DNA of 64,000 nt from contig NZ_CP048834.1 of the NCBI RefSeq assembly GCF_012971745.1, positions 6,085,001-6,149,000 of the forward strand, read 5' to 3'. Source of the DNA: Starkeya sp. ORNL1. Its GTDB lineage: Bacteria; Pseudomonadota; Alphaproteobacteria; Rhizobiales; Xanthobacteraceae. The notes beneath the pieces are model-generated. The model was not told where the DNA came from and did no database searches. It saw only the letters and a program-made list of their open reading frames with translations. Both the position numbers and the translations under genes were made by a program. Of this stretch, positions 45,390-64,000 are shown piece after piece (within the stretch, counting starts at the first letter, position 1; each line of letters opens with the position of its first letter).

Positions 45390-45415
45390 CGCCGCTTTTC
45401 TCGCGTGGCATAAGG

Positions 45416-46921: not shown

Positions 46922-46949
46922 TGTCAGGTCCCCGCGAAGGAGCGCTGCA

Positions 46950-49120: not shown

Positions 49121-49242
49121 TCAGCTGGCCTTCGCCTTTCTGAAGGTAAATTCAGAACCTGAAGGCAATGCTAGTGCATGGCGCCCGACCGGCGAAGCGG
49201 TATCGCACCGCTTGTGCCGGATCTGTTTCTCCAGCCGCCTGC

Positions 49243-49464
49243 CTACGCCGCGCGCCGCTCGGCACGGCGTTCTTCGACGTCGACGACGACGATCTTGCCG
49301 TGCTCCCGCATGTCGGTGCGCCAGCAACGTTCATCCAGAACGCCGGCTTTCGCCTGTTCGCGCGCTTGCCGATCGGCATCACCGAAATCATCCGCGTCGA
49401 TCATGACTTCCGCAATCTCGCGGCTTGCGACCGTACGTTCCAGTTTGATCGTGAAAATAGCCAT
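49243..49464 (-). CDS. Small conserved-looking protein, unknown function
   Basis: A 73-residue soluble protein with GAGGAG eight bases before ATG 49464. It opens with a strand (AIFTIKLERTVASREIAEVMIDADD), has a helix (DADRQAREQAKAG) and a C-terminal strand (GKIVVVDVEERR), giving a small alpha/beta fold. No family recognised. Confidence 0.65.
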   Translation of the reverse strand: MAIFTIKLERTVASREIAEVMIDADDFGDADRQAREQAKAGVLDERCWRTDMREHGKIVVVDVEERRAERRAA

Positions 49465-49583
49465 TGACGGTGCTCCTCTGGTTCGGGTCGAGGGTGCCCG
49501 TCATGGGCCGGCCGAGCTTCCCAGGCTGCCCGGCTTTTGCCGATTTGCCGGATGGACGGCGTCGCACCCGAACGGAAAGAGCG

Positions 49584-50705
49584 CTAGTCCTTCCGCAACG
49601 CCGCCCAATTCGCGACGGTATCGAACAGCCGGATGCGTTCAAAAAGCGCGTAGAACCGCGTCGCGAAGCCGTTCACGACGAACGCCCGCACCACGTGGAA
49701 CGCTGTCACCAGCCCAACCGATAAATGCAGTGTCTGCGCGGTGACCGCCATTTCGGTGGTGCCGCCGGGTGAGGTGCCGAGCGCGGCGCTGGCGAAATCA
49801 AGGCGGGTGAGGCTGGAGACCGTGAACGCCACGGCGAGCAGCATGGCGGCAAGCGCCAGCGTGTGCATCGTGCTGATGGCGAACAGCCGAGGCAGCCGCA
49901 TCACCATTTCGCGGCGGAAGCGGGCGCCGATGGCGAGCCCCATGAACATCTGTCCCGTGGCGAACAGCCAATACGGCATGCGGCCGTGCAGCAAGCCGAT
50001 CGAGGTCGCCGCGCCGGCGCCGATCAGCGCCCCGATCATCCAGGGATTGTTGAAGCGCAGCAGCCAGGCGACGCCGATGCCGACGATGCCGCAGCCGAGC
50101 GCGGCGAACAGCATCGGCCAGGTCAGATAGGCCTGCACCGCGAGGTCGTTGATATCGCCATGGATGCCGAGGCTGACGATCAACTGCGGCATGATCAGCA
50201 CCAGAAGTGCGACACGCATCGCCTGTGACACCGCGATCGGTTCCGCATGGGCGCCGACCAGCGACCCGATATTCGCCATCTCCGAGAGACCGCCCGGCAC
50301 CATGGCGAAGAAGGCGGTCTTGCGGTCGAGCCGGGCGAAGTGCGCGAAGAACACTGAGACCACGCCTGACAGCAGCACGGCGACAAGAGAGGTCACCACG
50401 ATCACCGGCAGGAAGGCGACGATGCTCTCCAGCACCACCGCGGTCACGCTGAGGCCGATGCTGGTGCCGATCACCAGTTGGCCGAAGCGGCGCCCGAGCA
50501 GCGGGGCGAATACCGGCTGTCCGAAGATCGACATCGCCGCGGTCACCACCAGCGGGCCGAGTGTCCAGGCCAGCGGCACGTGCAGCCAGGCGGCCAGCGC
50601 GCCCACCACGATGGATATGGCGAGGCTGATGAAAGCCCGTGGCGGAGGCAGCCGAAACCGGCCGGGCGAGGGCTTCGCCGCGGCGGCCTCGGGACCGGCG
50701 GTCAA
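49584..50705 (-). CDS. abrB: AbrB-family membrane transporter
   Basis: A 373-residue protein with about ten transmembrane segments in two repeated halves (WTLGPLVVTAAMSIFGQP and WMIGALIGAGAATSIGLL), typical of the AbrB/duplicated-AbrB family, often called putative ammonia monooxygenase in databases though it is a transporter-like protein. VPGGLSEMANIG and SPGGTTEMAVTAQTL are paired motifs. Its ATG overlaps the prpD1 stop (ATGA), so it belongs to module B; it may move the acid or a product across the membrane. Confidence 0.82.
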   Translation of the reverse strand: MTAGPEAAAAKPSPGRFRLPPPRAFISLAISIVVGALAAWLHVPLAWTLGPLVVTAAMSIFGQPVFAPLLGRRFGQLVIGTSIGLSVTAVVLESIVAFLPVIVVTSLVAVLLSGVVSVFFAHFARLDRKTAFFAMVPGGLSEMANIGSLVGAHAEPIAVSQAMRVALLVLIMPQLIVSLGIHGDINDLAVQAYLTWPMLFAALGCGIVGIGVAWLLRFNNPWMIGALIGAGAATSIGLLHGRMPYWLFATGQMFMGLAIGARFRREMVMRLPRLFAISTMHTLALAAMLLAVAFTVSSLTRLDFASAALGTSPGGTTEMAVTAQTLHLSVGLVTAFHVVRAFVVNGFATRFYALFERIRLFDTVANWAALRKD

Positions 50706-52120
50706 GCTGCCACGCGCTGTGCAGGGTCGCGCCGCAGCAGTTCGACCAGCCGGTGGGCGTGGTCCAGCCTCTCCATGCCCAATATGGCCTCGATGAGCGC
50801 GTCGCGTTGCGACTCGGGAAGCAAATGGTGGGTCAGCTTGTTGAACTTGTCGACAAGGTCGGCTTCCGAGGCGAACGAATATTCACTGCCACGCGGCGCC
50901 TCGCGGGTCTCGGCCTCGACGCTGCCGTCGCGATAATGCACCTCGACCCGCACCTTGTGCCGGAACTTCGAACCGAGCGCGGTGATGGCCGGATCGTGCC
51001 GCACCTCCACCTTGCGGGAGAGCTCGATGCGGCGCTGGTCGGTCACGCAGGCCTCGTCGAACTGTTCAACAAAGACATCGCCTTCCAGCAATAGCGTGGC
51101 GACGCAGAACGGCAGATTCAGCTGCGCCGAAGTCAGCCCCTCCGGGCGATAGGGCCAGCCGACATGGTCGGCAGTGACTTGCGAGCCATACACCACGATG
51201 TGGTCCAGCTGGTCGAGCGTGAAGGGATGGCGTTCCTGGATGGCGCGGATGGCATCGAGCGTGGTGTGGTTGCTGCCGACGCAGGAATAGAATTTCAGCG
51301 AGATGCGCATCGTCTCCCAGCGCTCGCCGAGGCCGGCCGTCAGCTCGGTGAGATTGTAGCGATCGGTCGAGCGCGAAAAGGTGCCGCAGAAGCCGCCATA
51401 GGGCGCCTCGAACACGTCGAGGATGCCGGTGAAGCCGGCATTCGCCAGCAACGCCGCATAGAGCCCGCTTTGCGCGGAGCGCCCGGCATGCATCCGCTTC
51501 ACCATGGCGCCGTACTGCGCCGCCATCAGCCCGGCGGCCTGCGTGCCGGCAATGCCGAGAGCGTGGACGGTCTGTTCCTCGGTGAGGCGCAGCGCGCGGG
51601 CGGCGCCGGAGGCGGCGGAGAACACGCCGACCGTGGCGCCGGAGTGCCAGCCCTGGCCGATATGCTCCTGGCCCATGCACATGCCGACCCGCGGGCCGAT
51701 CTCATAGCCGGCCACCGCTGCGGTCAGCAGGTCGCGCCCGTCCAGCTTGCTGTCGGGCGTGATGGTGGCAAGCAAGGCGGGGAGGGTGACGGCACCGACA
51801 TGCAGCACGCCCTGGCGATGCACGTCGTCGAGCTCGAAGCCCTGGATCTGCGTGCCGTTGAGCAGGGCAGCGTTCGGCGCCGAGAGCGCCTGGTCGGTGC
51901 CCCAGATCGGCGTGGTGCGGGTCGCGTCCAGCCCGGTGAGGGTGTCGCGCAATATGTCGGTCCACGGCAGATGCGCGCCATAGAGCCCGCAGCCGAGCGA
52001 ATCCAGCACCAGCAGCTTGATGCGCTGGCGCACCTCCTCCGGAATGTCCTCATACTTCAGCGAGGATACGAACGCCGCGATGCCGCGCGTGTACGGGTTG
52101 TCGATGCTATGCGCGGCCAT
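50702..52120 (-). CDS. MmgE/PrpD-family protein 1
   Basis: A 472-residue member of the MmgE/PrpD family, which includes 2-methylcitrate dehydratase (PrpD) and cis-aconitate decarboxylase. Recognisable parts are GFELDDVHRQGVLHVGAVTLPALLAT (His-bearing), SGATVGVFSAASGAARALRL, GTQAAGLMAAQYGAMVKRMHAG and the C-terminal VRDGSVEAETREAPRG-like region. The most probable job is reversible hydration or dehydration of a tricarboxylate. AGAGG is about seven bases before the ATG. Followed by abrB, preceded by prpB1. Confidence 0.9.
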   Translation of the reverse strand: MAAHSIDNPYTRGIAAFVSSLKYEDIPEEVRQRIKLLVLDSLGCGLYGAHLPWTDILRDTLTGLDATRTTPIWGTDQALSAPNAALLNGTQIQGFELDDVHRQGVLHVGAVTLPALLATITPDSKLDGRDLLTAAVAGYEIGPRVGMCMGQEHIGQGWHSGATVGVFSAASGAARALRLTEEQTVHALGIAGTQAAGLMAAQYGAMVKRMHAGRSAQSGLYAALLANAGFTGILDVFEAPYGGFCGTFSRSTDRYNLTELTAGLGERWETMRISLKFYSCVGSNHTTLDAIRAIQERHPFTLDQLDHIVVYGSQVTADHVGWPYRPEGLTSAQLNLPFCVATLLLEGDVFVEQFDEACVTDQRRIELSRKVEVRHDPAITALGSKFRHKVRVEVHYRDGSVEAETREAPRGSEYSFASEADLVDKFNKLTHHLLPESQRDALIEAILGMERLDHAHRLVELLRRDPAQRVAA

Positions 52121-52179
52121 AAGGCGCCTCTCCCATGAGGTGTTTTGATGTCGTGTTCTGTGAACGTCTTTTGATTGAT

Positions 52180-53079
52180 TCAGGCCGGCAGCACGGTCTG
52201 GGCGATCTGGGCGTCGAGCTGCTCGTAATCGAAATAGCCGATGCGGTCGTAAAGCTCGGCGCGGGTCATCATCTCCGGCAGATAGGCCTCGGCATTGCCG
52301 TCACGGGCGAGCGCCACATAGAACTTCTCCATGGCGCGCGAGGCGACGCGCAGCGCGGACACTGGATAGATCACCAGCTCGAAGCCGAGCTCGGTCCAGT
52401 CCGCCACCGAGACATGCGGGGTGCGGCCGAACTCCGTCATGTTGGCGAGGAGTGGCGCGCGGACCTCGGCGCGCACCCGCTGCATGTCCTCGCGGCTGGT
52501 CATCGCCTCGACGAAGATGATGTCGGCGCCGGCATCGATGTAGCGATGGGCACGAGTAATGGCGTCGTCGAGCGATTCCGCCGCCGCATCGGTGCGTGCG
52601 CAGATCGCCATGGTGGTGGCGGCGCGCTTGGCAGCGGAAATCTTGCGGCACATGTCGTCGGTGGAGACCAGGCGCTTGTCGTTGAGATGGCCGCATTTCT
52701 TGGGGAATTGCTGGTCCTCGATCTGGATGCCGGCGACGCCGACCGATTCCAGCTCGCGCACCGCGCGCATCACGTTCAGCGCCTCGCCGAAACCGGTATC
52801 GGCATCGACGATGAGCGGTAGCCCCGAGGCGCGCACCACGGTGCGGGCGGCGCGCCAGACGTCTTCGAGCGTGGTCAGGCCAAGGTCCGGCAGCGCCATC
52901 GAGGCCGAGAGGGCGGCGCCCGACAGATAGAGCGCGCGGAAGCCGGCGCGCTTGGCCAGTACGGCGGAGATGCCGTCCCAGGCGCCGGCGACGGCAATGC
53001 CTTGTTCGGAGCCGAGCGCCCTGAGGTCGAGAGCCGGGCTGGCGTTGGCCTCAGCCCCGTTGAGCCATGTCGCTGTCAT
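52180..53079 (-). CDS. 2-methylisocitrate lyase-like enzyme (PrpB1)
   Basis: A 299-residue member of the isocitrate lyase/PEP mutase superfamily. The catalytic KKCGH is intact (FPKKCGHLNDK), as are DADTGFG (metal and substrate), IEDQQ, CARTDA and the FVEAM glutamate. NMTEFGRTP matches the NxTEFG segment of true methylisocitrate lyases. So it probably cleaves a methylisocitrate-like acid into pyruvate and a dicarboxylate. I use ATG 53079 with GGAGGG three or four bases upstream. It is the first gene of the minus-strand operon in module B. Confidence 0.88.
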   Translation of the reverse strand: MTATWLNGAEANASPALDLRALGSEQGIAVAGAWDGISAVLAKRAGFRALYLSGAALSASMALPDLGLTTLEDVWRAARTVVRASGLPLIVDADTGFGEALNVMRAVRELESVGVAGIQIEDQQFPKKCGHLNDKRLVSTDDMCRKISAAKRAATTMAICARTDAAAESLDDAITRAHRYIDAGADIIFVEAMTSREDMQRVRAEVRAPLLANMTEFGRTPHVSVADWTELGFELVIYPVSALRVASRAMEKFYVALARDGNAEAYLPEMMTRAELYDRIGYFDYEQLDAQIAQTVLPA

Positions 53080-53140
53080 TATCCCTCCCTCGGGATCGAG
53101 TGGTGCGACCAATCGATCCCTGAACCCTCTTGGCGCGCGG

Positions 53141-53869
53141 TCAGCCTGGCTTGCGTGCGGCGCGCATGGAATTGAGCAAATTCTCCCGCGAGGCGCGGAT
53201 GTGCTGCGCCATCAGCAAGGCGGCAAGGTCGCCATTGCCGGCGATCACCGCCTCGGCGATCCAGCGGTGCTCCTGCAACGCCTTGCGGCCGCGTCCGCGG
53301 CTGGAGCCGTGCTGGCCGCGCAGCAGCGAGATGATGTCGCGGAACTCGTCGCCGCAGATGCGCCAGACCACCTCGTTGCGCGAGCCCTTGATAATCAGCA
53401 GGTGGAAATCCCAGTCGGCCGGCCCGCGCGGATAGGAGGTGGCGTTGGCCTCCGTCATCTGCGCTTCGTGGGCGTCGAGCGTCTCGGCGAGCCTGGCCCG
53501 CTCCACCTCGGTCATGTGCTGGGCGGCGAGGCGCGCGGCGAGCGCCTCCAGCGCCTCGCGCACATCATAGAGCTGGGCGACGGCGTCTATATCGGGCGAG
53601 ACCACGCGCGAGCCGACATTCGGCTCATAGGTGACGAGGCCCGACGAAGATAAACGTCGAATGGCTTCACGTATCGGCCCGCGGCTTATCCCCAGGCGCT
53701 GCGATATTTCCAGCTCATTGATCCGGCTGCCCGGCTTCAGGCGCCCATCTTCAATATCCTTGCGCAGAAGAAGCATGACCCGATCGGCGAGCAAGCCGCT
53801 GCTGCGCGCCTCTCTGTCTGTTTCTACGTTCGTGTCGACAATCTGTACGTTCGAATCGACAATTTTCAT
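53141..53869 (-). CDS. GntR-family regulator (FCD type), module B
   Basis: A 242-residue regulator with a GntR winged helix (LLADRVMLLLRKDIEDGRLKPGSRINELEISQRLGISRGPIREAIRRL, about residues 25-90) and a C-terminal FCD domain (LYDVREALEALAARLAAQH, HLLIIKGSRNEVV). It lies between two halves of module B, so it probably controls both. The ATG at 53869 has no ribosome site, and the first ten codons consist of a repeat IVDSNVQ/IVDTNVE that coincides with repeated operator-like DNA. The real start may be further in. Confidence 0.85.
   Translation of the reverse strand: MKIVDSNVQIVDTNVETDREARSSGLLADRVMLLLRKDIEDGRLKPGSRINELEISQRLGISRGPIREAIRRLSSSGLVTYEPNVGSRVVSPDIDAVAQLYDVREALEALAARLAAQHMTEVERARLAETLDAHEAQMTEANATSYPRGPADWDFHLLIIKGSRNEVVWRICGDEFRDIISLLRGQHGSSRGRGRKALQEHRWIAEAVIAGNGDLAALLMAQHIRASRENLLNSMRAARKPG
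53825..53863. repeat. Direct repeat in the 5' end of the GntR gene
   Basis: TACGTTCGTGTCGACAAT (53825-53842) recurs as TACGTTCGAATCGACAAT (53846-53863), period 21 bases. The TCGACAAT ends resemble the TAGACAAT and TCTACAAT of the nearby intergenic operator. It may be part of the same regulator-binding array. Confidence 0.75.
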
Positions 53870-53962
53870 TGAAGATTGGCATGCCTTTTGAGTTTTTGAG
53901 CTTGAAACGAGGATACTCCGCGTCGTCTCATCTCTGATCGTCACGATAATCGACGTCCGAGC

Positions 53963-53991
53963 TGTAGACAATCCCAAAACTGGTGTCTACA
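53963..53991. promoter_or_regulatory. GntR operator candidate, module B
   Basis: TGTAGAC (53963-53969) and GTCTACA (53985-53991) form a perfect inverted pair with 15 bases between. It lies between the divergent GntR and prpD2 genes. FCD-family GntR proteins commonly bind sequences of this kind. Confidence 0.65.
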
Positions 53992-54079
53992 ATCTCAAAC
54001 ATCGCTTCCCTGCTGTGGTTTTCCGCTGCGGGTCCGGACGCATCGATCCGGCGCGTCTCCCTGTTTCCTAGAGGGCGGT

Positions 54080-55477
54080 ATGCTGCTCGAACGGCTTTCC
54101 CAGCGCGCTATCGCGGTCCGACTCGACGATGTGCCCGAGGACGGCCTGGCGATTGCCAGGCTTGCCATTCTCGACACCGTCGGGGTGACGCTGGCCGGCG
54201 CTTCCGAGCCGTGCACACAGATCGCCGAGCGGGCGCTGGGCGCAGTCGGAAAGGGCACTGCCACCCTGTTCGGGCGCTCGGCGATGGTCGGGCCGCTCGA
54301 CGCCGCCACCATCAACGGCACCGCCTCCCACGCGCTCGATTTCGACGATTGCAGCAACTCGCTGGGCGGCCATCCCTCCGCGCCGGTAGTGCCGGCGCTG
54401 TGGGCGCTGGCCGAGCAAGAGGGGGCGAGTGGCGCCACGGTGCTCGACGCCTATGTCACCGGTGTCGAGGTCGAAACCAAGATCGCCCGCGGCGTCAATT
54501 TCCATCATTACGAGAAGGGCTGGCACCCCACCGCGACGCTCGGCACCTTCGGCGCCGCGGCCGCCTGCGCCAAGCTGATGAAGCTCGATGCGTTGGTCTT
54601 CACCAATGCGCTCGCCATCGCCTGCTCCATGGCGAGCGGGCTGAAGGCCAATTTCGGCACCATGACCAAGCCGTTCCATGTCGGCCAGTGCGCGCGCAAT
54701 GGCCTCTATGCCGCGCTGCTCGCCCGTGAGGGGCTGAGCGCCAATCCCGCCGCCATGGAGGATCCGCAGGGTTTCCTCATGGTGTTCAACGGCGAGGGGA
54801 AGTTCGATGCCGAGCGGATGATCGACGAGTTCGCCGCGCCCTTCGATCTCATGGAGCCCGGCATCGCCTTCAAGCGCCACCCCTGCTGCGCCTCCACCCA
54901 CCCGGCAGTCGACGCGCTGCTGCGCATCACCGCCGAGCATGATCTCGAAGCCGCCGACATCGCCGCGATCCGCTCCTGGACGCATCCGCGGCGGCTGCGC
55001 CACACCAACCGGCCGAACCCGCAATCCGGCCTCGATGGCAAGTTCAGCGTGCAATATGTGCTGGCCCGCGCCGTGCTCGACGGCTCGGTGCGGCTCGACC
55101 ATTTCGAAGATGCCGCGGTCCATGATCCGCAGGTCCGCGCCTTCATGAGCCGCATCGTTGCCGAGCCGCATCCCGAAGCGGTGATGGAGAGCACCGAGCA
55201 TTTCTTTGCCGATGTCGAGGTGACGACGACCTTCGGCGAGACGTTCCGCACCTATGTCGACCGTCCGCTTGGCCGCGACCGCGACCATCCGCTGCCGCCC
55301 GGCGCGCTCGAAACCAAGTTCCGCGACTGCGCCGCGCCGGTGATTGCGGATGACGCCGCCCGCGCCATCGAGGCGGCGATCCTCGGCCTGGAGACCCAGG
55401 CGAACATACGCACCATCGGCGACGTGATGCGCGAAGGGGTACGCCAGACGGAGCCGCGCCGCGCTGCGTTCGGCTGA
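54080..55477 (+). CDS. MmgE/PrpD-family protein 2
   Basis: A 465-residue second MmgE/PrpD protein. TASHALDFDDCSNSLGGHPSAPVVPALWAL (a typical H..DFDD...GHPS motif), TLGTFGAAAACAKLM and KRHPCCASTHPAVDALL are characteristic. It differs clearly from PrpD1, so the two may act on different stereoisomers or steps. GAGGG lies about five bases before ATG 54080. First gene of the plus-strand operon; probably a hydratase/dehydratase or decarboxylase of a tricarboxylate. Confidence 0.9.
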   Translation: MLLERLSQRAIAVRLDDVPEDGLAIARLAILDTVGVTLAGASEPCTQIAERALGAVGKGTATLFGRSAMVGPLDAATINGTASHALDFDDCSNSLGGHPSAPVVPALWALAEQEGASGATVLDAYVTGVEVETKIARGVNFHHYEKGWHPTATLGTFGAAAACAKLMKLDALVFTNALAIACSMASGLKANFGTMTKPFHVGQCARNGLYAALLAREGLSANPAAMEDPQGFLMVFNGEGKFDAERMIDEFAAPFDLMEPGIAFKRHPCCASTHPAVDALLRITAEHDLEAADIAAIRSWTHPRRLRHTNRPNPQSGLDGKFSVQYVLARAVLDGSVRLDHFEDAAVHDPQVRAFMSRIVAEPHPEAVMESTEHFFADVEVTTTFGETFRTYVDRPLGRDRDHPLPPGALETKFRDCAAPVIADDAARAIEAAILGLETQANIRTIGDVMREGVRQTEPRRAAFG

Positions 55478-55530
55478 GGTCGGCCCAGAAACCGGAACCG
55501 GAAAAATCAAGAACACTTCAGGGAGTAGAT

Positions 55531-57069
55531 ATGTCGGACCCGAGCCCGAGCAACATCGACGACGCGCTGCGCACCAGGCCGGATGTGGTGGTGGTGGGCG
55601 GCGGCAATGCGGCGCTGTGCGCGGCAATCTCCGCCCATGAGGCCGGCGCGCGCGTCGTGGTGCTCGAGGCCGCGTCGGAGGAAGAGCGCGGCGGCAATTC
55701 GCACTTTACCGGCGGCGCCTTCCGCTTCGCCTATCGCGGCGTCGACGATCTGCGCGAAGTCTATCCCGGCATGACGCAGGACGAGATCGACAATGTCGAT
55801 TACGGCTCCTATTCCGAGGAGCAGTTCCTCGACGACATGTTCGAATTGACCGAGTACCGCACCGATCCGGAGCTATCGGAGCTGCTGGTGCGCTCCAGCC
55901 TCGAGACGGCGAAATGGATCGCCCGCCAGGGCGTCAAGCTGCAGCCCGGCCTCGGCCGGCAGGCCTACAAGGTCGACGGCAAGTTCAAGTTCTGGGGCGG
56001 CCTCGCGCTGCACATCTGGGGCGGCGGCAGCGAGCTTCTGAAGGCGCTCTATGCCAATGCCGAGCGCCGCCGCATTCCCATCCTCTACGACACCCCGGCG
56101 ATCGAGCTGCTGCGCGAGGGCGACGCAGTGACCGGGCTCATCGCTCGCCATCGCGGCGCACGGGTGAAGATCGAGGCCGGCGCGGTAATCCTCGCCTGCG
56201 GCAGCTTCGAATCCAATCCGGAACTGCGCGCCCGCTATCTCGGCCCCGGTTGGGACATGGCGAAGGTGCGCGGCACCCGCTTCAATATGGGCGAGGGGCT
56301 GATGATGGCGCTGCGCGCCGGCGCGCGTCCGCACGGCAACTGGTCCGGCTGCCATTCCGTCGCCTGGGACGTGAACGCGCCGCCGTTCGGCGACCTCACC
56401 ATCGGCGACCAGTTCCAGAAGCACAATTATCCGTTCGGCATCGTCGTCAATGCCAAGGGCGAGCGCTTCCTCGACGAGGGCGCCAATTTCCACAGCCACA
56501 CTTATGCGAAGTATGGCGGCGAGATCCTGAAGCAGCCGGGCATGTTCGCCTGGCAGGTGTTCGACGCCAAGGTCAGCCATCTGCTGCGCGGCGAATACCG
56601 CATCCGACGTGTCACCAAGGCTGAGGCGAACACGCTGGAGGAACTGGCGGCCAAGCTCACCGGCGTCGATCCCGAGGCCTTCCTGCGCACCGCGCACGCC
56701 TTCAACGCCGCCTGCCGGACCGACGTGCCGTTCAATCCGAACGTCCTCGACGGACGCGCCACGCAGGGGCTCGCGCTCGACAAGTCGAACTGGGCCAACC
56801 CGCTCGATACCGCACCCTTCCATGCCTACCACGTCACCACCGGCGTCACTTTCACCTTCGGCGGCTTGAAGGTGAGCGCGAATGCCGAGGTCGAGGACCT
56901 CTATAGCGGCGTCATCCCCGGCCTCTATGCCGCCGGCGAGATGGTCGGCGGGTTGTTCTTCCAGAATTACGCCAGCGGCACCGGGCTGATGTCCGGCGCC
57001 ACCTTCGGTCGGTTCGCCGGCGCCCATGCCGCCGCCTATGCGACGCGCTCCATGGCCGAAGCGATCTGA
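55531..57069 (+). CDS. TcuA-like FAD-dependent tricarballylate dehydrogenase
   Basis: A 512-residue flavoprotein of the succinate dehydrogenase/fumarate reductase flavoprotein family, most like TcuA, which oxidises tricarballylate to cis-aconitate. FAD motifs: VVVVGGGNAALCAAISAHEAG and VVVLEAAS; then ERGGNSHFTGGAFRF and LYAAGEMVGGLFFQNYASGTGLMSGATFGR at the C-terminus. AGGGAG is five bases before ATG 55531. In this operon it would introduce a double bond in the imported acid, so PrpD could then hydrate it. No TcuB partner is encoded here. Confidence 0.87.
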   Translation: MSDPSPSNIDDALRTRPDVVVVGGGNAALCAAISAHEAGARVVVLEAASEEERGGNSHFTGGAFRFAYRGVDDLREVYPGMTQDEIDNVDYGSYSEEQFLDDMFELTEYRTDPELSELLVRSSLETAKWIARQGVKLQPGLGRQAYKVDGKFKFWGGLALHIWGGGSELLKALYANAERRRIPILYDTPAIELLREGDAVTGLIARHRGARVKIEAGAVILACGSFESNPELRARYLGPGWDMAKVRGTRFNMGEGLMMALRAGARPHGNWSGCHSVAWDVNAPPFGDLTIGDQFQKHNYPFGIVVNAKGERFLDEGANFHSHTYAKYGGEILKQPGMFAWQVFDAKVSHLLRGEYRIRRVTKAEANTLEELAAKLTGVDPEAFLRTAHAFNAACRTDVPFNPNVLDGRATQGLALDKSNWANPLDTAPFHAYHVTTGVTFTFGGLKVSANAEVEDLYSGVIPGLYAAGEMVGGLFFQNYASGTGLMSGATFGRFAGAHAAAYATRSMAEAI

Positions 57070-57145
57070 CGCCAACAGTGCTTCACGACGCCAATTTCAT
57101 TGGATCCGGACGCAGAATCCGGCCGTAACGAGGTGAGGGAACGAC

Positions 57146-58249
57146 ATGAGACGAGACACGCGTTTCGGATGGAAAAGCCTGCTGGCCGGCATCGCCGCCT
57201 TGGCGGCGATCGCCGGCATCGCGCCGGCAAGCGCGCTGGATCTCGCCGGCAAGCGGGTCACGCTGATCATCCCCTATCAGGAGGGCAGCGGCTCCACCAT
57301 TCATGGGCGCCTGTACGCGCTGGCGCTGGAGCGCGCTCTGCCGGGCAAGCCGACCATCATCGTGCGCAACATCGATGGCGGCGGTTCGGTGCGCGGCATC
57401 AACCAATTCTATAAGGATGCCCGTCCCGACGGCATGATGATCGCGGCGATCGGCACCGGCACCTTCTTCCAGTACATTCTCAAGGACTCGGCAGTGGCCT
57501 ATCCGCTGCCGGAGTTCCGCCCGTTCGTCACCTCGCCCTTCGGCCTCCTGGCCTATGCCCGCACCGATCTCGGCCTCGGAAAGGACTATGTCGAGAATGT
57601 CCGCAAGCTGATCGCCAAGCCCCCGGTCTATGGCGGTTCGGGCGCAACCTCGTCGGACCTGCCGGCGCTGCTCAGCTTCGACCTGCTGGGCATCCGGCAG
57701 AAGAACGTGTTCGGCCTCAGCAACGCGGAATCCCGCGCCGGCTTCGAGCGCGGCGAGTTCTCGCTGAAGTACGACAACGCCGCCTCCTGGGCGGAAGAGG
57801 TCAAGCCGCTGGTGGATGAGGGCACCGCGACGCCGCTCTTCACCTTCGGCCTCGAGGTCGACGGCAAGATCGTCCGCGACCCGACCTTGCCGGACGTGCC
57901 GACCTTCCTGGAGCTCTATGAGAAGGTGAACGGCAAGCCGTTGTCCGGCATCGAATATGCGGTGTGGAAGGCGCTGTTCAATGTGCGCGTGATGGGCTCC
58001 AAGATGCTGGTGCTGCCGCCCGGCACGCCGCAGGACATCGAGGATGTCTACACCAAGGCTGCCGCCGAGGCGCTGCGCTCCGACATCCTCACCGGTCCGC
58101 AGGCCAAGCTGGTGCTCGGCGAATATCCGCAGAGCGTCGGCGCCGCCTCCGAGGCGGTGTTCAAGGCCGGGCTCGGCATGACCCCCGAGCAGCAGAAATG
58201 GCTGCGCGACTGGCTGAAGCAGCGCTTCGACATCGCCGTCGCCGACTGA
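57146..58249 (+). CDS. Bug-type periplasmic binding protein, module B
   Basis: A 367-residue exported binding protein related to the TTT/Bug receptors but longer and divergent. A signal peptide (SLLAGIAALAAIAGIAPASA) precedes VTLIIPYQEGSGSTIHGRLYALALERALPG and RNIDGGGSVRGINQFYKDARPDG, which match Bug patterns. AGGG lies six bases before the ATG. It should capture the module-B acid in the periplasm for the TctAB fusion encoded next. A hairpin with a T-run separates the two genes. Confidence 0.88.
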   Translation: MRRDTRFGWKSLLAGIAALAAIAGIAPASALDLAGKRVTLIIPYQEGSGSTIHGRLYALALERALPGKPTIIVRNIDGGGSVRGINQFYKDARPDGMMIAAIGTGTFFQYILKDSAVAYPLPEFRPFVTSPFGLLAYARTDLGLGKDYVENVRKLIAKPPVYGGSGATSSDLPALLSFDLLGIRQKNVFGLSNAESRAGFERGEFSLKYDNAASWAEEVKPLVDEGTATPLFTFGLEVDGKIVRDPTLPDVPTFLELYEKVNGKPLSGIEYAVWKALFNVRVMGSKMLVLPPGTPQDIEDVYTKAAAEALRSDILTGPQAKLVLGEYPQSVGAASEAVFKAGLGMTPEQQKWLRDWLKQRFDIAVAD

Positions 58250-58260
58250 TCCTCCAGGAC

Positions 58261-58291
58261 GGCCGGCCGCATTCAGCGGCCGGCCCCTTTT
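58261..58291 (+). terminator. Intrinsic terminator or attenuator after binding-protein gene
   Basis: GGCCGGCCGC (58261-58270) and GCGGCCGGCC (58276-58285) form a perfect ten-base stem with a five-base loop, then CC and TTTT. It probably lets some transcripts stop after the binding-protein gene, so the receptor is made in excess over the membrane subunit. Confidence 0.75.
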
Positions 58292-58343
58292 CCCCATTCG
58301 TTGCTTGCCGCGGGCTCGACACCCGTCGCGCTTGGGAATTTCC

Positions 58344-60341
58344 ATGGACTTTTCCGTCCTTCAGTACGCCGTGCCGGCCCTGGTGCAACTGCTCACCGGT
58401 CCGCATCTCGTCTATCTGCTGTTCGGCGTGGCGCTCGGCATGGTGGTGGGCATCCTGCCCGGCATTGGCGGGCTATCCGGCATGGCGCTGGTGCTGCCCT
58501 TCATCTTCGGCATGGATCCCGGCCCGGCGCTGGCGATGCTGATCGGCCTGACCGCGGTGCCGGCGACCTCCGATACCTTCAGCTCGGTGCTGATCGGCGT
58601 GCCGGGCGGGGCAGGGGCGGCGGCGACCGTGCTCGACGGTTTTCCCATGGCCAAGCGGGGCGAGGGCGCCCGCGCCCTCAGCGCGGCGTTCAGCGGTTCG
58701 CTGATCGGCGGCCTGTTCGGCGCGCTGGTGCTGACCTTCGCCTTTGTCGGCGCCCGCCCGCTGCTGCTCGCCATCGGCTTCGGCGAGCAATTGATGCTCG
58801 TGGTGCTCTCGCTCACCCTCGTCGGCATGCTGACCGGCGAGAACGTGGTGAAGGGCCTCGCCTCGTGCGCGCTGGGACTCTTGATCGGTACCATCGGCTC
58901 CTCGCAGGCCACCGCCGAATATCGCTTCACCTTCGGCTCGCTCTATCTGTCGGACGGCGTGCCGCTGGTCATCGTCGCGCTCGGCGCCTTCGCGCTGCCC
59001 GAGATCATCGACGTGCTGCGCCAGCACTACGCTATCTCCCAGGTCGACCTTGTCGGCCGCGGCTGGATCCAGGGCATACGCGACGTCATCAAGAATTTCG
59101 GCCTGGTGATCCGTTGCTCGGCGATCGGCGCGCTCACCGGCATCCTGCCCGGCATGGGCGGCGGCATCGTCGGCTGGGTGGCCTATGGCCACACGCTGCA
59201 ATCATCCAGGGACCGTAGCCAGTTCGGCAAAGGCGACGTGCGCGGCGTCATCGGGCCGGAATCCGCCAACAATGCCAAGGAGGGCGGCGACCTCATCCCG
59301 ACCCTGTTCTTCGGCATTCCGAGCTCGGGCACCATGGCGCTGCTGCTCGGCGGCCTGGTGGTGATCGGCATCACGCCCGGCCGCACCATGGTCACCAACC
59401 ATGTCGACCTGATCTATCTGATCATCTGGTCGCTCGCGATCGCCAATGTGCTCGCCACCATCATCAGCATGGGCCTTGCCAGGCCGATCGCAACGCTGAC
59501 CGCGATCCGCTTCACGCTGGTGGCGCCGTTCGTCATCGTGATGATCTTCTTCTCCGGCTACCAGGCCAAGACCGACTGGGGCGACCTCGTTGCGCTGCTC
59601 GTGGTTGGGCTGGTCGGCATCTATATGAAGCGCTTCGGCTGGTCGCGGCCGGCGCTGCTGATCGGCCTGGTGCTGTCGCAGCGCCTTGAGGCGTCGCTCT
59701 ACCGCACGGTGCAGATCTACGGTCTCGACATCTTCCTGCGGCCGATCGCGCTCGCCATCCTCGCCGTCGCCATCATCTCCATCTTCTTCGCGGTGCGCGC
59801 CAAGGTGCGCATGTCCACCGAGACCTCGGGAGTGTCGGACGCATCGCGCCGGGTGATCTGGCCACAACTGGTCTTCGTCGGCGTGCTGACGGCGTTCGTG
59901 GTGGCACTGGCCGTCGATGTAAGCCGGCTACGCTTCCTTGCCAATGTGTTCCCGCTCATCGTCGCCGCGATCTGCCTCACCATGCTGGCGATCGTCACCG
60001 TGCAGATGCTGCGCCGGAGCACCTCGCCCGGCCTGCTCTATGACGCCGACGCCGAGGCCCGCGAGAGCGGCGAGAGCGGCACCCGCAGCACGCTGGCACT
60101 GGCCGGCCTGATGGCGGCGCTACCCGGGCTCGCCTTCTTCATCGGCTTCTTCATGGCCGCGCCGGTCTATGTTTGCCTCTTCCTGCGCAAGCTGGGGGAA
60201 GCCTCCTGGCTGTTCTCCATCCTGATGGCGCTCGGCCTCGGCCTGTTCCTCTATGCCATGGGCGAGGTGCTGCAGGCCGAGTATGCCAGCGGCCTGCTGC
60301 AGGATTTCGTGCGGCTGCCGCCGCCCTTCGGCGGAGGCTGA
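58344..60341 (+). CDS. TctA-TctB fusion transporter
   Basis: A 665-residue membrane protein. Residues 1-500 are a TctA translocator (GILPGIGGLSGMALVLPF, GVPGGAGAAATVLDGFPMAKR, second copy GILPGMGGGIVGWVAYG, GPESANNAKEGGDLIPTLFFGIPSSGTMALLLGG). Residues about 505-660 hold four more transmembrane segments like TctB (WPQLVFVGVLTAFVVALAVD to LFLYAMGEVLQAEY). Such fusions occur but TctA and TctB are usually separate, as in module A. I use ATG 58344, GGGA upstream. Confidence 0.88.
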   Translation: MDFSVLQYAVPALVQLLTGPHLVYLLFGVALGMVVGILPGIGGLSGMALVLPFIFGMDPGPALAMLIGLTAVPATSDTFSSVLIGVPGGAGAAATVLDGFPMAKRGEGARALSAAFSGSLIGGLFGALVLTFAFVGARPLLLAIGFGEQLMLVVLSLTLVGMLTGENVVKGLASCALGLLIGTIGSSQATAEYRFTFGSLYLSDGVPLVIVALGAFALPEIIDVLRQHYAISQVDLVGRGWIQGIRDVIKNFGLVIRCSAIGALTGILPGMGGGIVGWVAYGHTLQSSRDRSQFGKGDVRGVIGPESANNAKEGGDLIPTLFFGIPSSGTMALLLGGLVVIGITPGRTMVTNHVDLIYLIIWSLAIANVLATIISMGLARPIATLTAIRFTLVAPFVIVMIFFSGYQAKTDWGDLVALLVVGLVGIYMKRFGWSRPALLIGLVLSQRLEASLYRTVQIYGLDIFLRPIALAILAVAIISIFFAVRAKVRMSTETSGVSDASRRVIWPQLVFVGVLTAFVVALAVDVSRLRFLANVFPLIVAAICLTMLAIVTVQMLRRSTSPGLLYDADAEARESGESGTRSTLALAGLMAALPGLAFFIGFFMAAPVYVCLFLRKLGEASWLFSILMALGLGLFLYAMGEVLQAEYASGLLQDFVRLPPPFGGG

Positions 60342-60347
60342 TCCGAC

Positions 60348-61433
60348 ATGACGCTGCTGCTCGACAATGACGAACTCGCCCCGCTGATCGATGCGCGTGA
60401 ATTCGTGGAAGCGGAGGACATCGCCTACCGCGCCTTTGCCGGCGGTGAGGGCGTGAGCACGTCGCGCATCGACCTGCAATCCGCTCCCGACGCCAATGGC
60501 GCCAACTACCAGCTCGGCGTGACCCTGGGCATGGCCGGCAAATATGCGGCGCTGCGCATCAAGTCGGATATGGTGTTCCAGCGACTGGTCGACGGCAGGC
60601 CGCGCAAGGAGAAGTTCTGCATAGAGCCCGGCACCTATATGGGCCTGATCCTGGTGTTCGACCGCGCCAGCGGCGAACTCGCCGCCATCCTCCATGACGG
60701 GCTCCTGCAGAAGATGCGGGTCGGCGCGGATTCCGCGCTCGGTGCGCGCTACATGTCGCGGCCGGATTCCTCGGTGCTCGCCATTCTCGGCGCCGGCGGC
60801 ATGGCCCGTGCCCATGTCGACGCCATGCGCGCGGTGCGGCCCATATCCAGCGTGCGGGTGTTCAGCCCGACCCCGGCCAATCGCGAGGCCTTCGCCCGCG
60901 AGATCACCGAGCGGCACGGCATCGAGGCGGTGGCGCTCGATGATCCGGACGAGGCCTGCCGCGGCGCCGATCTCGTCGCCTCCTGCGCCAGCGCCATCGG
61001 CCCGGTGATCTTCGGCCGGCAATTGGAGCCGGGCATGCATGTCACCTGTATCGGCGGCACGCTCGATCGGGAAGCCAATGCCCGGGTCGATGTGGCGCTG
61101 CGCTTCGGCCTCTCCCAGGTCCCGGTGGAATTGGGCGGGCTCGCCTTTGCCGACGAATGCCTCACCTTTTCGGAGGTCGGCGGCAAGGCGGCGCACGCGG
61201 GTACGCGGCGCTATGCCGATGTGCCGGCGGAGCACCGCGTGAGTTTCGCCGAGCTGCTGACGGATCCCGGGCGCGGGCGCACCAGCGACGCGCAGATCAC
61301 CTTCTCCGAGCGCGGCAACATATACGGCCTGCAATTCGCCGCGGTGTGCGGGCGCCTGGTGGAGCGGGCGCGCGCCGCAGGTGCCGGGCGCACGCTCGAT
61401 ACCGCGCTGTTCCTGCAATCCATTCGCAATTGA
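60348..61433 (+). CDS. Ornithine cyclodeaminase/mu-crystallin-family enzyme
   Basis: A 361-residue protein with the family's Rossmann motif (SSVLAILGAGGMARAHVDAMRAV), LHDGLLQKMRVGADSALGARYMS (the typical MRTGA-type segment) and a C-terminal ADV-like region. Family members are ornithine cyclodeaminases, ketimine reductases or alanine dehydrogenases acting on an imine or amino acid. In module B it might reduce an imine derivative of a keto acid, but this is weakly supported. It follows the transporter by six bases. Confidence 0.85.
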   Translation: MTLLLDNDELAPLIDAREFVEAEDIAYRAFAGGEGVSTSRIDLQSAPDANGANYQLGVTLGMAGKYAALRIKSDMVFQRLVDGRPRKEKFCIEPGTYMGLILVFDRASGELAAILHDGLLQKMRVGADSALGARYMSRPDSSVLAILGAGGMARAHVDAMRAVRPISSVRVFSPTPANREAFAREITERHGIEAVALDDPDEACRGADLVASCASAIGPVIFGRQLEPGMHVTCIGGTLDREANARVDVALRFGLSQVPVELGGLAFADECLTFSEVGGKAAHAGTRRYADVPAEHRVSFAELLTDPGRGRTSDAQITFSERGNIYGLQFAAVCGRLVERARAAGAGRTLDTALFLQSIRN

Positions 61434-61443
61434 GGACGCAGCA

Positions 61444-62370
61444 TTGGACGCACGGCGCAGCCTCCGCCCGCTGCTCAGTGAGCAGCCGATCCTGGTGTCG
61501 CCCGGCGTCTATGACGGCTACAGCGCCCGCCTCGCGGAGCGTGCCGGCTTCGCGCTGGTCTCCACCACCGGCGCCGGCCTCGCTAATTCCCGGCTCGGCG
61601 TGCCCGATGTCGGCCTGTTCTCGGTGCGCGACAATCTCGAAGCCTGCCGCGTCATCGTCGCTGCCACCAGCCTGCCGATTTCGGCCGATGCCGAGACCGG
61701 GTACGGCAATGCCGCTACCGTGCATTATGTGGTGCGCGCCTTCGAGGACGCTGGCGTCTCGGCGGTGAGCATCGAGGACCAGCTGGCGCCGAAGCGCTGC
61801 GGCCATCTCGCCGGCAAGGAGGTGATCCCGACGGCGGAGATGGTCGGCAAGATCCGCAGCGCGGTCGATGCCCGGGCGAGCGAGGATTTCCTCATCATCG
61901 CGCGCACCGACGCCATCGCCGTGGAAGGCATCGAGGGCACGGCGGCGCGCGCCAGGGCCTATGAAGCGGCCGGCGCCGACGTGATCTTCCCCGACGCCGT
62001 GCGCGGGCGCGAGGACATTGAGCGCCTCGTCGCCGCCGTAGACATTCCGGTGCGGATCAATATGGGTTTCGGCATCCGCACCCGCTCCACCACGCCGCTG
62101 ATGTCGGTGCGCGAATTGCGTGAGATCGGCGTGCGCTGGGTCAGCCTGTCGCGCCTGCTTCCCGCCGCCGCCATCCACGGCATGACGCAGGCGCTCGCGG
62201 TGATGCGCCAGGCGATCGACGGCGACGTGATGATCGAGCGGCCCGACCTCGTCGCCGATATGCGCGAGATCACCGAGCTGATGGGCTACGCCGAATACAT
62301 GGAGATCGAGCGCCGTTTCCTCGACGAGGAGCACGTCGCCCGCAAATACGAGGCCGGGGGCGAGCCATGA
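61444..62370 (+). CDS. Isocitrate lyase/PEP-mutase-family enzyme (PrpB2)
   Basis: A 308-residue second member of the superfamily. The lyase motif KRCGH (APKRCGHLAGKE) and ARTDA are kept. But DAETGYG replaces DADTGFG, the metal-site Glu is Asp (VIFPDAV), and the NxTEFG segment of methylisocitrate lyases reads INMGFGIRTRSTTP, so the substrate should differ from that of PrpB1. It begins at TTG 61444 after GAGGAC; no ATG fits. Last intact gene of the plus-strand operon. Confidence 0.85.
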   Translation: MDARRSLRPLLSEQPILVSPGVYDGYSARLAERAGFALVSTTGAGLANSRLGVPDVGLFSVRDNLEACRVIVAATSLPISADAETGYGNAATVHYVVRAFEDAGVSAVSIEDQLAPKRCGHLAGKEVIPTAEMVGKIRSAVDARASEDFLIIARTDAIAVEGIEGTAARARAYEAAGADVIFPDAVRGREDIERLVAAVDIPVRINMGFGIRTRSTTPLMSVRELREIGVRWVSLSRLLPAAAIHGMTQALAVMRQAIDGDVMIERPDLVADMREITELMGYAEYMEIERRFLDEEHVARKYEAGGEP

Positions 62371-62411
62371 GCGTCGACCCCCTGTCGGTGCTGCCTTTGG
62401 CCGGTCACTGA
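62367..62411 (+). pseudogene. Truncated start of a further operon gene
   Basis: An ATG overlapping the prpB2 stop (ATGA), as in a coupled operon gene, reads MSVDPLSVLPLAGH and then stops after 14 codons. It looks like the first codons of a lost gene. A following terminator hairpin and sequence of different character suggest that DNA beyond about 62411 was joined later. Confidence 0.5.
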
Positions 62412-62434
62412 TCGCCGGCGACGTCGGCAAAAAA

Positions 62435-62470
62435 TCGGGAGGCTCGCCGCGGGTTGGGCGAGCCTCCCGA
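62435..62470 (-). terminator. Rho-independent terminator for minus-strand transcripts
   Basis: TCGGGAGGCTCGCC (62435-62448) and GGCGAGCCTCCCGA (62457-62470) form a perfect 14-base stem with an eight-base loop. Read on the minus strand it is followed by TTTTTT, so it ends the esterase transcript arriving from the right. Confidence 0.8.
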
Positions 62471-62594
62471 GGAGGATGTGGCGGCCCGGTCGGGAGGGGA
62501 CGGGGGAGCGGGCGGCCAGTGACGAGAAGATCGCTTACCGCCGGTCGCCTGAGAATCATCCGCTAGGTAATGCGGGCCCATACTTGGGTATGGG

Positions 62595-62623
62595 GGCGGC
62601 AACGGTGCTTTGGCACCGCCGCC
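62595..62623. terminator. GC hairpin downstream of the esterase
   Basis: CGGTGC (62603-62608) pairs with GCACCG (62613-62618), flanked by GGCGGC and CCGCC with a small bulge. It lies 46 bases after the esterase stop, with no clear T-run. Confidence 0.4.
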
Positions 62624-62668
62624 GGTCTTGCTTGATACGGATGGCTGTCCCCTTGCTCGCGATCTGGC

Positions 62669-63709: not shown

Positions 63710-63800
63710 GCTCCGAGGAGGTTGCACGCAACCGCCGAAGTAGCCTGCGAGGAGGGGATGCCGCTTCTGTCAAATGACCAGTCCGATGACGGATCGGCGG

Positions 63801-64000
63801 TCAGCTCGCGGTATGGCGTGCTTCGGCAACGATGGGGCGTAGCCCGGACCGCGACGTGATGCCGGTCTTCGAGAAGATCCGATGCAAGTGGTAGCCAACG
63901 GTTCTGTGAGACAAATAGAGCCTGGCGCCGATTTCCTTGTTCGAGAGTCCTTCGGCAGCGAGCTGGGCGATGTGAAGCTCCTGTGGGGTCAGCGCCTCCC
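63801..64000 (-). CDS. LuxR-type regulator, C-terminal end (cut by window)
   Basis: Reverse-strand translation gives a helix-turn-helix of LuxR type: EALTPQELHIAQLAAEGLSN, KEIGARLYLSHRTVGYHLHR, IFSKTGITSRSGLRPIVAEA, then a stop at 63801-63803. Only the last 66 codons are inside the window, so the sensor part is unknown. It lies upstream of the esterase gene on the same strand, about 90 bases away, and may regulate it. Confidence 0.85.
   Translation of the reverse strand, partial: EALTPQELHIAQLAAEGLSNKEIGARLYLSHRTVGYHLHRIFSKTGITSRSGLRPIVAEARHTAS

Follow-up and report, generated by a model that had tools for sequence, protein, structure and literature searches.

A recurring gene unit with MmgE/PrpD proteins, PrpB-type lyases and a TcuA-like dehydrogenase in Starkeya sp. 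ORNL1, possibly serving the catabolism of a substituted succinate

Which compound is handled by a gene set combining MmgE/PrpD proteins, PrpB-type lyases, a TcuA-like flavoenzyme and a tricarboxylate importer? This question is raised by positions 49584-62370 of the window, i.e. the whole stretch of 64,000 nucleotides analysed here. These positions are occupied by two divergent operons flanking a GntR regulator, with the orders AbrB-PrpDA-PrpB1-GntR on the minus strand and PrpDB-TcuA-Bug-TctA/B fusion-OCD-PrpB2 on the plus strand. The original prediction had described two operons around a GntR regulator with these gene families; gene coordinates and family matches (Pfam, NCBIfam or homologs) agree with it (Table 1).

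Table 1. Features of the locus, with position in the window, strand and supporting evidence
Feature	Position	Strand	Evidence
AbrB-family membrane protein (accessory transport)	49584..50705	-	Pfam AbrB, 223.8 bits
PrpDA, MmgE/PrpD family, putative hydratase/dehydratase paired with PrpB1	50702..52120	-	Pfam MmgE_PrpD N and C
PrpB1, methylisocitrate-lyase-type C-C lyase	52180..53112	-	TIGR02317, 369.4 vs cut-off 354.4
GntR/FCD regulator	53141..53869 (ORF extends to TTG 53977)	-	Pfam FCD and GntR
Putative GntR operator TGTAGACA-N13-TGTCTACA	53963..53991	.	Sequence search, conservation
PrpDB, MmgE/PrpD family, putative C2 epimerase/racemase	54080..55477	+	Nearest solved structure IDS-epimerase
TcuA-like FAD dehydrogenase without TcuB	55531..57069	+	NF006130, 571.7 vs cut-off 369
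Bug/TctC-type periplasmic solute-binding protein	57146..58249	+	Homologs with PF03401 or TctC name
TctA-TctB fusion, permease of tripartite tricarboxylate transporter	58305..60341	+	Pfam TctA, residues 35-452
OCD, ornithine cyclodeaminase/mu-crystallin-fold NAD(P) oxidoreductase	60348..61433	+	
PrpB2, divergent PEP-mutase/ICL-superfamily lyase	61444..62370	+	Pfam PEP_mutase, 180 bits
PrpDC relic: start codon, 14 codons, stop; remainder of gene absent	62367..62411	+	DNA alignment, reading frame

Transport and regulation

The tripartite tricarboxylate transporter is complete, consisting of TctA, a TctB-like C-terminus and a Bug/TctC protein. The C-terminal third of the fusion (678 amino acids) resembles 12 short proteins taken as TctB for their position beside TctA (hhalign 97.1%, E 7e-11); Pfam TctB did not match it at E 0.5. 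The solute-binding protein has no Pfam match of its own, and hhalign related it at 99.9% to 30 proteins labelled Bug. Both reference sets were picked by similarity and place; for the solute-binding protein, as a later, independent check, many of its 120 listed homologs bear PF03401 or the name TctC. The predicted combination of import and polycarboxylate chemistry under one regulator is supported. An Rfam scan of 45000-64000 and a tRNA scan of the whole window gave no match. For the flank at 62600-64000, G003 is the one other genome among 30 of the genus with a substantial match.

Between the two operons lies a dyad, which in its exact form, with spacers of 11-17 admitted, is the single match in the 6.29 Mb genome. 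A relaxed form (spacer 13 or 14), searched for in the module loci and in control loci, occurs at the same place in seven of nine GntR-bearing loci, the window included. It has no occurrence in 114 other loci (1.34 Mb), a count that excludes five paired sites which are copies of the window's own site. The paired site is absent from two loci possessing GntR (L026, L082), and the dyad is absent from L018, L022, L023 and L024, which have no GntR ortholog. Note that the dyad was first spotted by eye in upstream regions and then tested, so that its choice was not blind. The FCD operator consensus TNGTN3ACNA matches none of 13 upstream regions; its form with N2 occurs in five of these (L016, L017, L023, L024, L026), the window not being among them. 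As a putative operator, the dyad may be bound by GntR. The start codon of GntR is probably ATG 53869 (or GTG 53944), because TTG 53977 falls within the dyad; alignments of GntR orthologs start at query residue 30-62 in seven of eight loci and at residue 1 in L015.

Recurrence of the unit in other genomes

A search for the same cluster in other genomes had been suggested along with the original prediction. With OCD as bait, the genome scan kept 80 loci; the gene order is repeated in 14 of them, which have the unit completely or partially. As these 80 were the best of 270 relatives ranked by OCD similarity, 14 is a lower bound. The unit-bearing loci span Hyphomicrobiales, Rhodobacterales, Puniceispirillum, Rhodospirillales MAGs and Halomonas. 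Chance clustering is ruled out by the presence of the same unit in 14 loci, and since the gene set recurs in distantly related bacteria, it very likely represents a real pathway.

Gene presence was counted over these 14 loci. Genes outside the window were called by a home-made codon-usage script instead of a standard gene finder, and this script missed genes of L026 that are visible in an ORF scan. Two loci are short contigs (L019, L025) and L018 is cut within TcuA; absences at these three are consequently not evidence. In all 12 loci showing both, PrpDB lies immediately before TcuA, and PrpDA adjoins PrpB1 in all 11 loci that show these two. PrpB2 is present in seven of the 14 loci. AbrB stands at the end of the unit in nine, and several loci end there (locus or contig end). 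OCD is found in all 14, but was the search bait. The permease is variable: no TctA is shown at L018, L023 and L024, and at L018 an ABC importer sits between OCD and PrpDA. Across the 14 loci, no additional gene is found repeatedly within the unit.

A PrpDA was detected at E<=1e-120 in six of 385 genomes of the class, our genome included. In two of them (G113 and G366, 19.5 kb read), PrpDA is accompanied by PrpDC, without a recognised TcuA, OCD or PrpB; the cluster in G085 and G217 is of the PrpF type, and in G396 the contig ends soon after the PrpDA-like gene. In the other 66 of the 80 loci, the neighbours of the OCD subfamily are mixed (L040 gave no called gene). Ten representatives of recurring OCD neighbours, compared with two libraries, comprised importers, SDR, MFS, Rieske and 6PGDH-type dehydrogenase proteins, a CoA ligase, and two that were unmatched. 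With no single answer among these loci, the subfamily context was dropped as a clue to the substrate. Two loci not counted as modules share elements with the unit: L087 carries OCD and TctA, with TcuA-like (28%) and PrpB1-like (41%) genes on the opposite strand, and L090 has a PrpD-family gene beside OCD.

Active sites of the PrpD and PrpB proteins

The two PrpD-family proteins originally predicted are those present here. The prediction missed a third one, PrpDC, which belongs to the conserved unit and is deleted in this genome, and likewise the dyad and the kinship of PrpDB to iminodisuccinate (IDS) epimerase. A full-length PrpDC occupies the place of the relic in 13 of 14 related loci, and the DNA alignment of the relic region with L015 ends at 62405. 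On the 3' side, a resemblance noticed by eye was not borne out by any shared 12-mer; we therefore claim only the 5' relic. A paralog (48%) at 4.37 Mb might replace the lost protein.

In a tree of 57 rows, PrpDA, PrpDB and PrpDC form three groups with support values of 100/100, 100/99 and 100/100, judged against rows of the other groups. Eighteen rows belong to no group, two of these lying inside the PrpDA clade; distant rows (CAD, IDS-epimerase, B. subtilis IRG1 and some paralogs of our genome) have long branches and unsure joins. The three well-supported clades rule out a recent tandem duplication. The position of the second catalytic base is an invariant Tyr, Ile or Glu, differing among the clades. 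In PrpDA, Q93, E96, H107, I154, H159, K208 and K276 are invariant in 13 of 13 sequences, and the best PDB match reaches 110 bits. PrpDB has H84, D87, H98, Y144, H149, K197 and K265, also invariant in 13 of 13 sequences. It thereby shows the pattern of an IDS-type epimerase, i.e. the catalytic His/Tyr pair and a conserved His/Asp/Lys shell. Its closest solved structure is IDS-epimerase (243 vs 188 bits for the next protein; 324 vs 267 bits in a profile search). However, B. subtilis 'IRG1', to which PMC12290011 assigns no function, likewise has Tyr as its second base, so that this residue is no proof of epimerase activity.

The contrast originally drawn between PrpB1, with standard methylisocitrate lyase signatures, and PrpB2, altered at the metal site and the TEFG segment, is real. 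PrpB1 retains DxD, KKCGH, E202 and NMTEFG in 12 of 12 sequences, and its closest PDB entry is 4iqd (292 bits). PrpB2 fails the prpB cut-off (233.2 vs 354.4 bits) and has DxE for DxD, D205 for E and NMGFGIRTR for NMTEFG, invariant in 8 of 8. The further claim that the two should not do the same job is weakened: L021 carries only PrpB2, and L023, L024, L026, L027 and L082 carry only PrpB1, which is why the two look partly interchangeable despite their differing active sites. The structure model of PrpB2 is weak (pLDDT 71.8) and its structural matches add nothing beyond sequence. Its start is probably TTG 61444, since GTG 61381 falls within OCD.

Substrate and candidate reactions

The reading that we prefer, with a probability of about 0.4, is a dedicated, GntR-controlled catabolism of a single small polycarboxylate. 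This would most likely be a succinate that is chiral and C2-substituted, and it would be processed as the free acid. We infer the substrate class and the following order of steps. Bug and the TctA-TctB fusion would take up the acid, and PrpDB would invert its C2 centre by a His/Tyr two-base mechanism, which would make every stereoisomer acceptable to the enzyme that follows. The substrate would then be desaturated by the TcuA-like flavoenzyme to an aconitate-like acid, its electrons perhaps passing to ETF rather than to TcuB. PrpDA, as a one-base enzyme, might hydrate or isomerise the alkene to an isocitrate-like hydroxy acid, which PrpB1, or PrpB2 where PrpB1 is absent, would cleave, releasing a smaller carboxylate along with glyoxylate or pyruvate as the 2-oxo acid. 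A side or entry branch for an amino or imino form could be provided by OCD and PrpDC, with OCD performing a C-N redox step. The conservation of the unit across distant genera, the three PrpD clades with their fixed, different catalytic residues, and the dyad, single in its exact form and conserved, support a pathway of this kind. Against it count the inconstant permease, the CoA or TPP enzymes flanking the unit at two loci, the loss of PrpDC here while the rest is intact, the score of PrpB1 as a methylisocitrate lyase in a unit devoid of methylcitrate synthase, and the occurrence of the wider OCD subfamily in many other settings.

The link to ETF is suggested by a congener locus (L145), where two ETF-like genes are followed, after a gap of 477 bases and as the next called gene, by a TcuA relative (55%), and by Halomonas (L022), where ETF genes begin 34 bases after PrpDC. 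However, this is the only one of the 14 loci with ETF genes beside the unit, and they are followed there by serA, perhaps a housekeeping neighbourhood. The module couples three distinct PrpD types with constant partners and with one regulator, whose operator-like site is single in its exact form; one inducer could thus link all three to one substrate. Just short of even odds is how we rate an undescribed free-acid pathway that would convert a substituted, possibly nitrogen-bearing succinate to small acids. It would employ three MmgE/PrpD enzymes diverged to three different reactions, with Tyr, Ile or Glu at one active-site position as their mark, besides a TcuA paralog linked to ETF and an oxidoreductase of the OCD fold. 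If true, this would add up to three functions to a family of which only four activities are characterised.

Tricarballylate, whose use the original prediction likened to the chemistry of the unit, has lost ground as a substrate. Tricarballylate utilisation proceeds by the tcu genes, and a TcuA-like flavin dehydrogenase is present in the unit. In the corresponding scheme, TcuA would form cis-aconitate, PrpD isocitrate, and PrpB succinate and glyoxylate. The window protein passes one NCBIfam TcuA cut-off (Table 1), agrees in an alignment with the other TcuA of the genome at Tyr, Thr and Tyr positions, and lies in one unit with a TTT-type importer. However, it stays below the cut-off of TIGR02485 (276.3 vs 372.6) and is 38% identical to that other TcuA, which scores 606.8 in the same model and belongs to a separate tcuA-tcuB pair at 4.568-4.571 Mb. 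The only TcuB of the genome according to TIGR02484 is encoded there, at 4.568 Mb, and none lies beside the window TcuA. A separate isocitrate lyase also exists (TIGR01346, 583.9 bits over its pieces), whereas PrpB1 (54.1) and PrpB2 (62.5) fail the cut-off of 275.9. Given these separate genes and the missing TcuB of the module, a plain use of tricarballylate is unlikely. Moreover, tricarballylate is achiral and needs no epimerase, which would leave PrpDB and OCD without a use. From the tcu system the unit also differs by its additional lyase genes. We consider this scheme, including aconitate as a substrate, quite improbable, and the name TcuA (tricarballylate dehydrogenase) may mislead for the recurring subfamily.

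Were the substrate an N-substituted aspartate, for example iminodisuccinate or a related compound, PrpDB would act as an IDS-type epimerase, OCD and the flavoenzyme would open or oxidise the C-N bond, and the remaining PrpDs and PrpBs would process the released C4 acid. Such an aminopolycarboxylate breakdown is unlikely, if a shade less so than tricarballylate use. It agrees with the nearest solved relative of PrpDB (PDB 2HP0/2HP3), which has the same catalytic His and Tyr, and with the presence of OCD, although the search bait, in all 14 loci. OCD has an ornithine cyclodeaminase/mu-crystallin fold with an NAD(P) domain. Its model is nearest to C-N redox enzymes (alanine dehydrogenase, pyrroline-2-carboxylate reductase, SbnB and iminosuccinate reductase), which may hint at related chemistry; yet OCD is far below every NCBIfam equivalog cut-off matched (best 107.1 vs 408; EutC, BhcD, SbnB, AlaDH and others). 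Unlike IDS-epimerase, PrpDB belongs to a larger unit that contains no fumarase-type C-N lyase, and a C-C lyase and three PrpDs exceed what such a pathway seems to need. A variant of the 2-methylcitrate cycle (genes prpBCD; mmgEF) for propionate or propionyl-CoA is highly improbable. In its favour, PrpB1 passes the prpB cut-off and is paired with a PrpD-family gene; the adjacency of PrpDA and PrpB1, which resembles that of PrpD and PrpB, we also count for the preferred pathway for a C2-substituted succinate. Against the cycle, both PrpDs are far below the prpD equivalog cut-off of 458 (PrpDA 29.8, PrpDB 37.3 bits), no citrate-synthase gene such as prpC is among the genes of the window unit or recurs inside the unit elsewhere, and the dedicated importer and TcuA would be left unexplained.

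The original prediction knew of no described pathway with this set, and we found no description of it in an open-access paper library (subscription papers are mostly outside that scope). A close parallel is the cluster for itaconate/methylsuccinate degradation in Pseudomonas and Cupriavidus (Msi, Mcd, Ict, Ich, Ccl), where, according to PMC12290011, an MmgE/PrpD methylsuccinate isomerase clusters with methylsuccinyl-CoA dehydrogenase. The adjacency of PrpDB and TcuA parallels this coupling, in which isomerase and flavin dehydrogenase act on a 2-substituted succinate, and we count it, too, for the preferred pathway; the two-base His/Tyr residues are those of PrpDB. In contrast to the methylsuccinate route, which uses CoA esters, an acyl-CoA dehydrogenase and a CoA transferase, the present unit relies on a dehydrogenase of the TcuA type and on PrpB-type lyases, and it also has OCD and up to three PrpDs. 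No CoA transferase, hydratase, citramalyl-CoA lyase or acyl-CoA dehydrogenase is found in the window unit, and none recurs inside the unit elsewhere, which is why we propose a handling as free acid. CoA or TPP enzymes flank the unit at two loci: an acyl-CoA dehydrogenase-like gene, located just outside the unit, and a TPP enzyme at L023, with homologues at L024, that of the former in the same place.

Organization and distribution of the module

The genes from AbrB to PrpB2 form a conserved catabolic module assembled from known enzyme families; no description of it was found in the literature that could be searched. The host genome consists of one contig of 6.29 Mb, in which the window occupies positions 6085001-6149000, and the module is arranged in two divergent operons spanning 49584-62370. 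The gene coordinates of the original prediction were correct overall, apart from two start codons, which differ.

Features of the window in and around the module
Feature	Coordinates	Strand	Remark
GntR, PrpB1, PrpDA, AbrB	within 49584-62370	-	minus operon
PrpDB, TcuA, Bug, TctA-TctB fusion, OCD, PrpB2	within 49584-62370	+	plus operon
Dyad TGTAGACA-N13-TGTCTACA	53963-53991		between the operons
PrpDC relic	62367-62411	+	start and 14 codons left; followed by the esterase gene on the opposite strand
Esterase, LipP1/hormone-sensitive-lipase-like	62669-63727	-	adjoins the module
Cytochrome bd-type subunit I and FdhF/YdeP-family molybdopterin oxidoreductase	36130-40007	-	adjacent genes
RND efflux pair	41017-45389	+	MdtA/MuxA-like adaptor and RND_permease_2 subfamily permease
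Two-domain cupin	45556-46818	+	Pfam Cupin_1 in two stretches

A genome scan with the alignment of OCD, the ornithine cyclodeaminase-family protein, yielded 270 relatives; the best 80 were retained, and in 14 of these 80, OCD is placed in the same unit. The gene counts given below refer to these 14 module loci from the best 80 of 270 relatives, and in several cases a gene is absent because the contig or locus ends. PrpDC, the third PrpD type, was seen in 13 of the 14 loci; PrpDA, PrpDB and TcuA in 12 each; PrpB1, the solute-binding protein Bug and TctA in 11 each; AbrB in nine and PrpB2 in seven. An ortholog of the GntR regulator occurs in eight, a count which leaves out the GntR of locus L018, as it is only 37% identical. 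The composition varies further: TctA was not seen in L018, L023 and L024. In L018, OCD and PrpDA are separated by genes for an ABC importer and for a TauE-type protein; in L023 and L024 a second Bug gene is present, and genes for a TPP enzyme and for an acyl-CoA dehydrogenase-like protein flank the unit (the flanking families were searched in libraries for L023, and the L024 genes are homologues of those).

Hosts of the module include Microvirga arabica, Microvirga antarctica, Phyllobacterium onerii, Halomonas salipaludis, Wenxinia marina, Silicimonas algicola, Paracoccus onubensis, a Puniceispirillum isolate and an Octadecabacter MAG. The occurrence of Halomonas in a list of Alphaproteobacteria suggests that the module has been transferred horizontally. 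OCD was searched for in 61 relatives, counting the own genome: six had matches at E<=1e-30, and identity exceeded 40% in two of these only, the own genome and G021 (86%), a genome assigned to the host's genus. The nearest named module-bearing relative is a Xanthobacteraceae MAG (L015), whose contig coordinates show that it is the G021 locus. The DNA 3' of the module in L015 corresponds to about 1.03-1.05 Mb of the own genome; the module therefore occupies different chromosomal places in the two. Outside the module, a 357-base stretch of the window (33686-34042) is 77% identical to L015:17033-17389. Partial likenesses to the module were seen in L090, where a PrpD-family gene adjoins an OCD gene, and in L087, which has OCD and TctA with TcuA-like and PrpB1-like genes on the opposite strand.

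PrpD types, PrpB lyases and the proposed pathway

The own genome contains twelve MmgE/PrpD genes. A tree with 13 sequences per type, to which the window contributes one PrpDA and one PrpDB, separates PrpDA, PrpDB and PrpDC with support values of 100/100, 100/99 and 100/100; a paralog at 4.37 Mb, 48% identical to PrpDC, joins the PrpDC clade at 100/100. A published account (PMC12290011) proposes that enzymes of this family move a proton at C2 of a 1,4-dicarboxylate via an enolate; isomerases employ a histidine and a tyrosine, and for cis-aconitate decarboxylase a one-base mechanism is proposed. Mapping through PDB alignments showed the complete two-base set in PrpDB (H98 and Y144), an isoleucine at the tyrosine place and Q93 instead of the shell's first histidine in PrpDA, and a glutamate (E162) at the tyrosine place in PrpDC. 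These marker residues are invariant in 13/13 sequences of each type. PrpDB is closest to iminodisuccinate epimerase (243 bits versus 188). As a mark of isomerase function its tyrosine is suggestive only, because B. subtilis IRG1, whose function the same account calls undetermined (PMC12290011), likewise has a tyrosine at that position.

Certain genes recur together in the 14 module loci from the best 80 of 270 relatives: PrpDB pairs with TcuA in 12/12 loci and PrpDA with PrpB1 in 11/11, while PrpDC lies near OCD and is the last gene of the plus-strand operon in 13 of 14. PrpDA and PrpDC also stand side by side in two further loci (L135, 7545-16857, and L136, 9395-12152), where TcuA, OCD and PrpB were not recognised beside them; L135 also contains a TRAP-type importer and one more gene of the PrpD family. 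The occurrence of this pair without the rest of the module suggests that PrpDA and PrpDC have a common substrate.

The PrpDB-TcuA pair is similar to the isomerase and dehydrogenase published for methylsuccinate breakdown, and the PrpDA-PrpB1 pair to the methylcitrate cycle's dehydratase and lyase. The recurrence of the pairs and these likenesses suggest a scheme in which a substituted succinate would be imported and handled as the free acid throughout: epimerisation at C2 would be followed by desaturation, hydration and finally C-C cleavage. We assign this whole scheme a probability of about 0.4. Of the other readings of the same gene set, a route for aminopolycarboxylates is doubtful, and simple use of tricarballylate or aconitate appears unlikely.

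For the cleavage step of the proposed scheme, two lyases are encoded. In PrpB1 the motifs for metal and substrate are retained, and its score exceeds the prpB cut-off; PrpB2 has DxE, D205 and an altered loop, all invariant in 8/8 sequences. The expectation that the two have distinct jobs is weakened: the unit of L021 has PrpB2 alone and five other module loci have PrpB1 alone, which speaks for overlapping jobs. A normal isocitrate lyase is encoded elsewhere in the own genome.

TcuA and its putative electron acceptor

The TcuA of the module passed one NCBIfam TcuA model and failed the other; a second TcuA of the own genome, which adjoins the genome's only TcuB, passed both by a wide margin. The module TcuA is a member of a different subfamily. 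In an alignment, three active-site positions carry Tyr, Thr and Tyr in both proteins, so their chemistry is likely to be similar.

In Halomonas (L022), ETF genes begin 34 bases 3' of PrpDC; from this and from the L145 cluster described below we infer that ETF is the electron acceptor of the module TcuA. The Halomonas evidence is weakened by serA, which comes next, and ETF genes were seen in no other of the 14 module loci (best 80 of 270 relatives).

Relatives of the module TcuA, at 59% and 55% identity, were found in other clusters. The former is the second TcuA-like protein of a cluster in L134 (2761-17164) and L137, which comprises Rieske oxygenases, an amidase, PrpDA-like, TcuA-like, PrpF, this second TcuA-like protein and an amidohydrolase (family searches were made for L134 only); at a guess, the cluster may form an aconitate-like product from an aromatic or pyridine acid. 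The latter is encoded in a congener (L145, G003:C11:248000-267500), directly after two ETF-like genes, with a gap of 477 bases; these share 60% and 56% identity with the L022 ETF genes. The stretch contains GntR, TctB-like, TctA, the ETF-like pair, TcuA-like, dehydrogenase-like, aldolase-like and PrpDC-like (37%) genes, together with a presumably aconitase-like gene, judged by its sequence start.

A putative operator and neighbouring genes

With spacers of 11-17 bases, the dyad between the operons has a single exact match in the own genome. A relaxed form lies at the same place, with a spacer of 13 or 14, in seven of the nine loci with a GntR ortholog (window, L015, L016, L017, L020, L021, L027), and none was found in 114 other loci (1.34 Mb). 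In L026 and L082 the regulator is present and the paired site was not found; L018, L022, L023 and L024 have neither GntR ortholog nor dyad. Judged from this distribution, GntR seems to serve this module alone, with the dyad as putative operator.

Among the neighbouring genes, the two-domain cupin, which resembles an oxalate decarboxylase-type protein, gave a TAT-signal match under its cut-off. Among 30 genomes of the genus, the region of the esterase is substantially matched in one further genome (G003).
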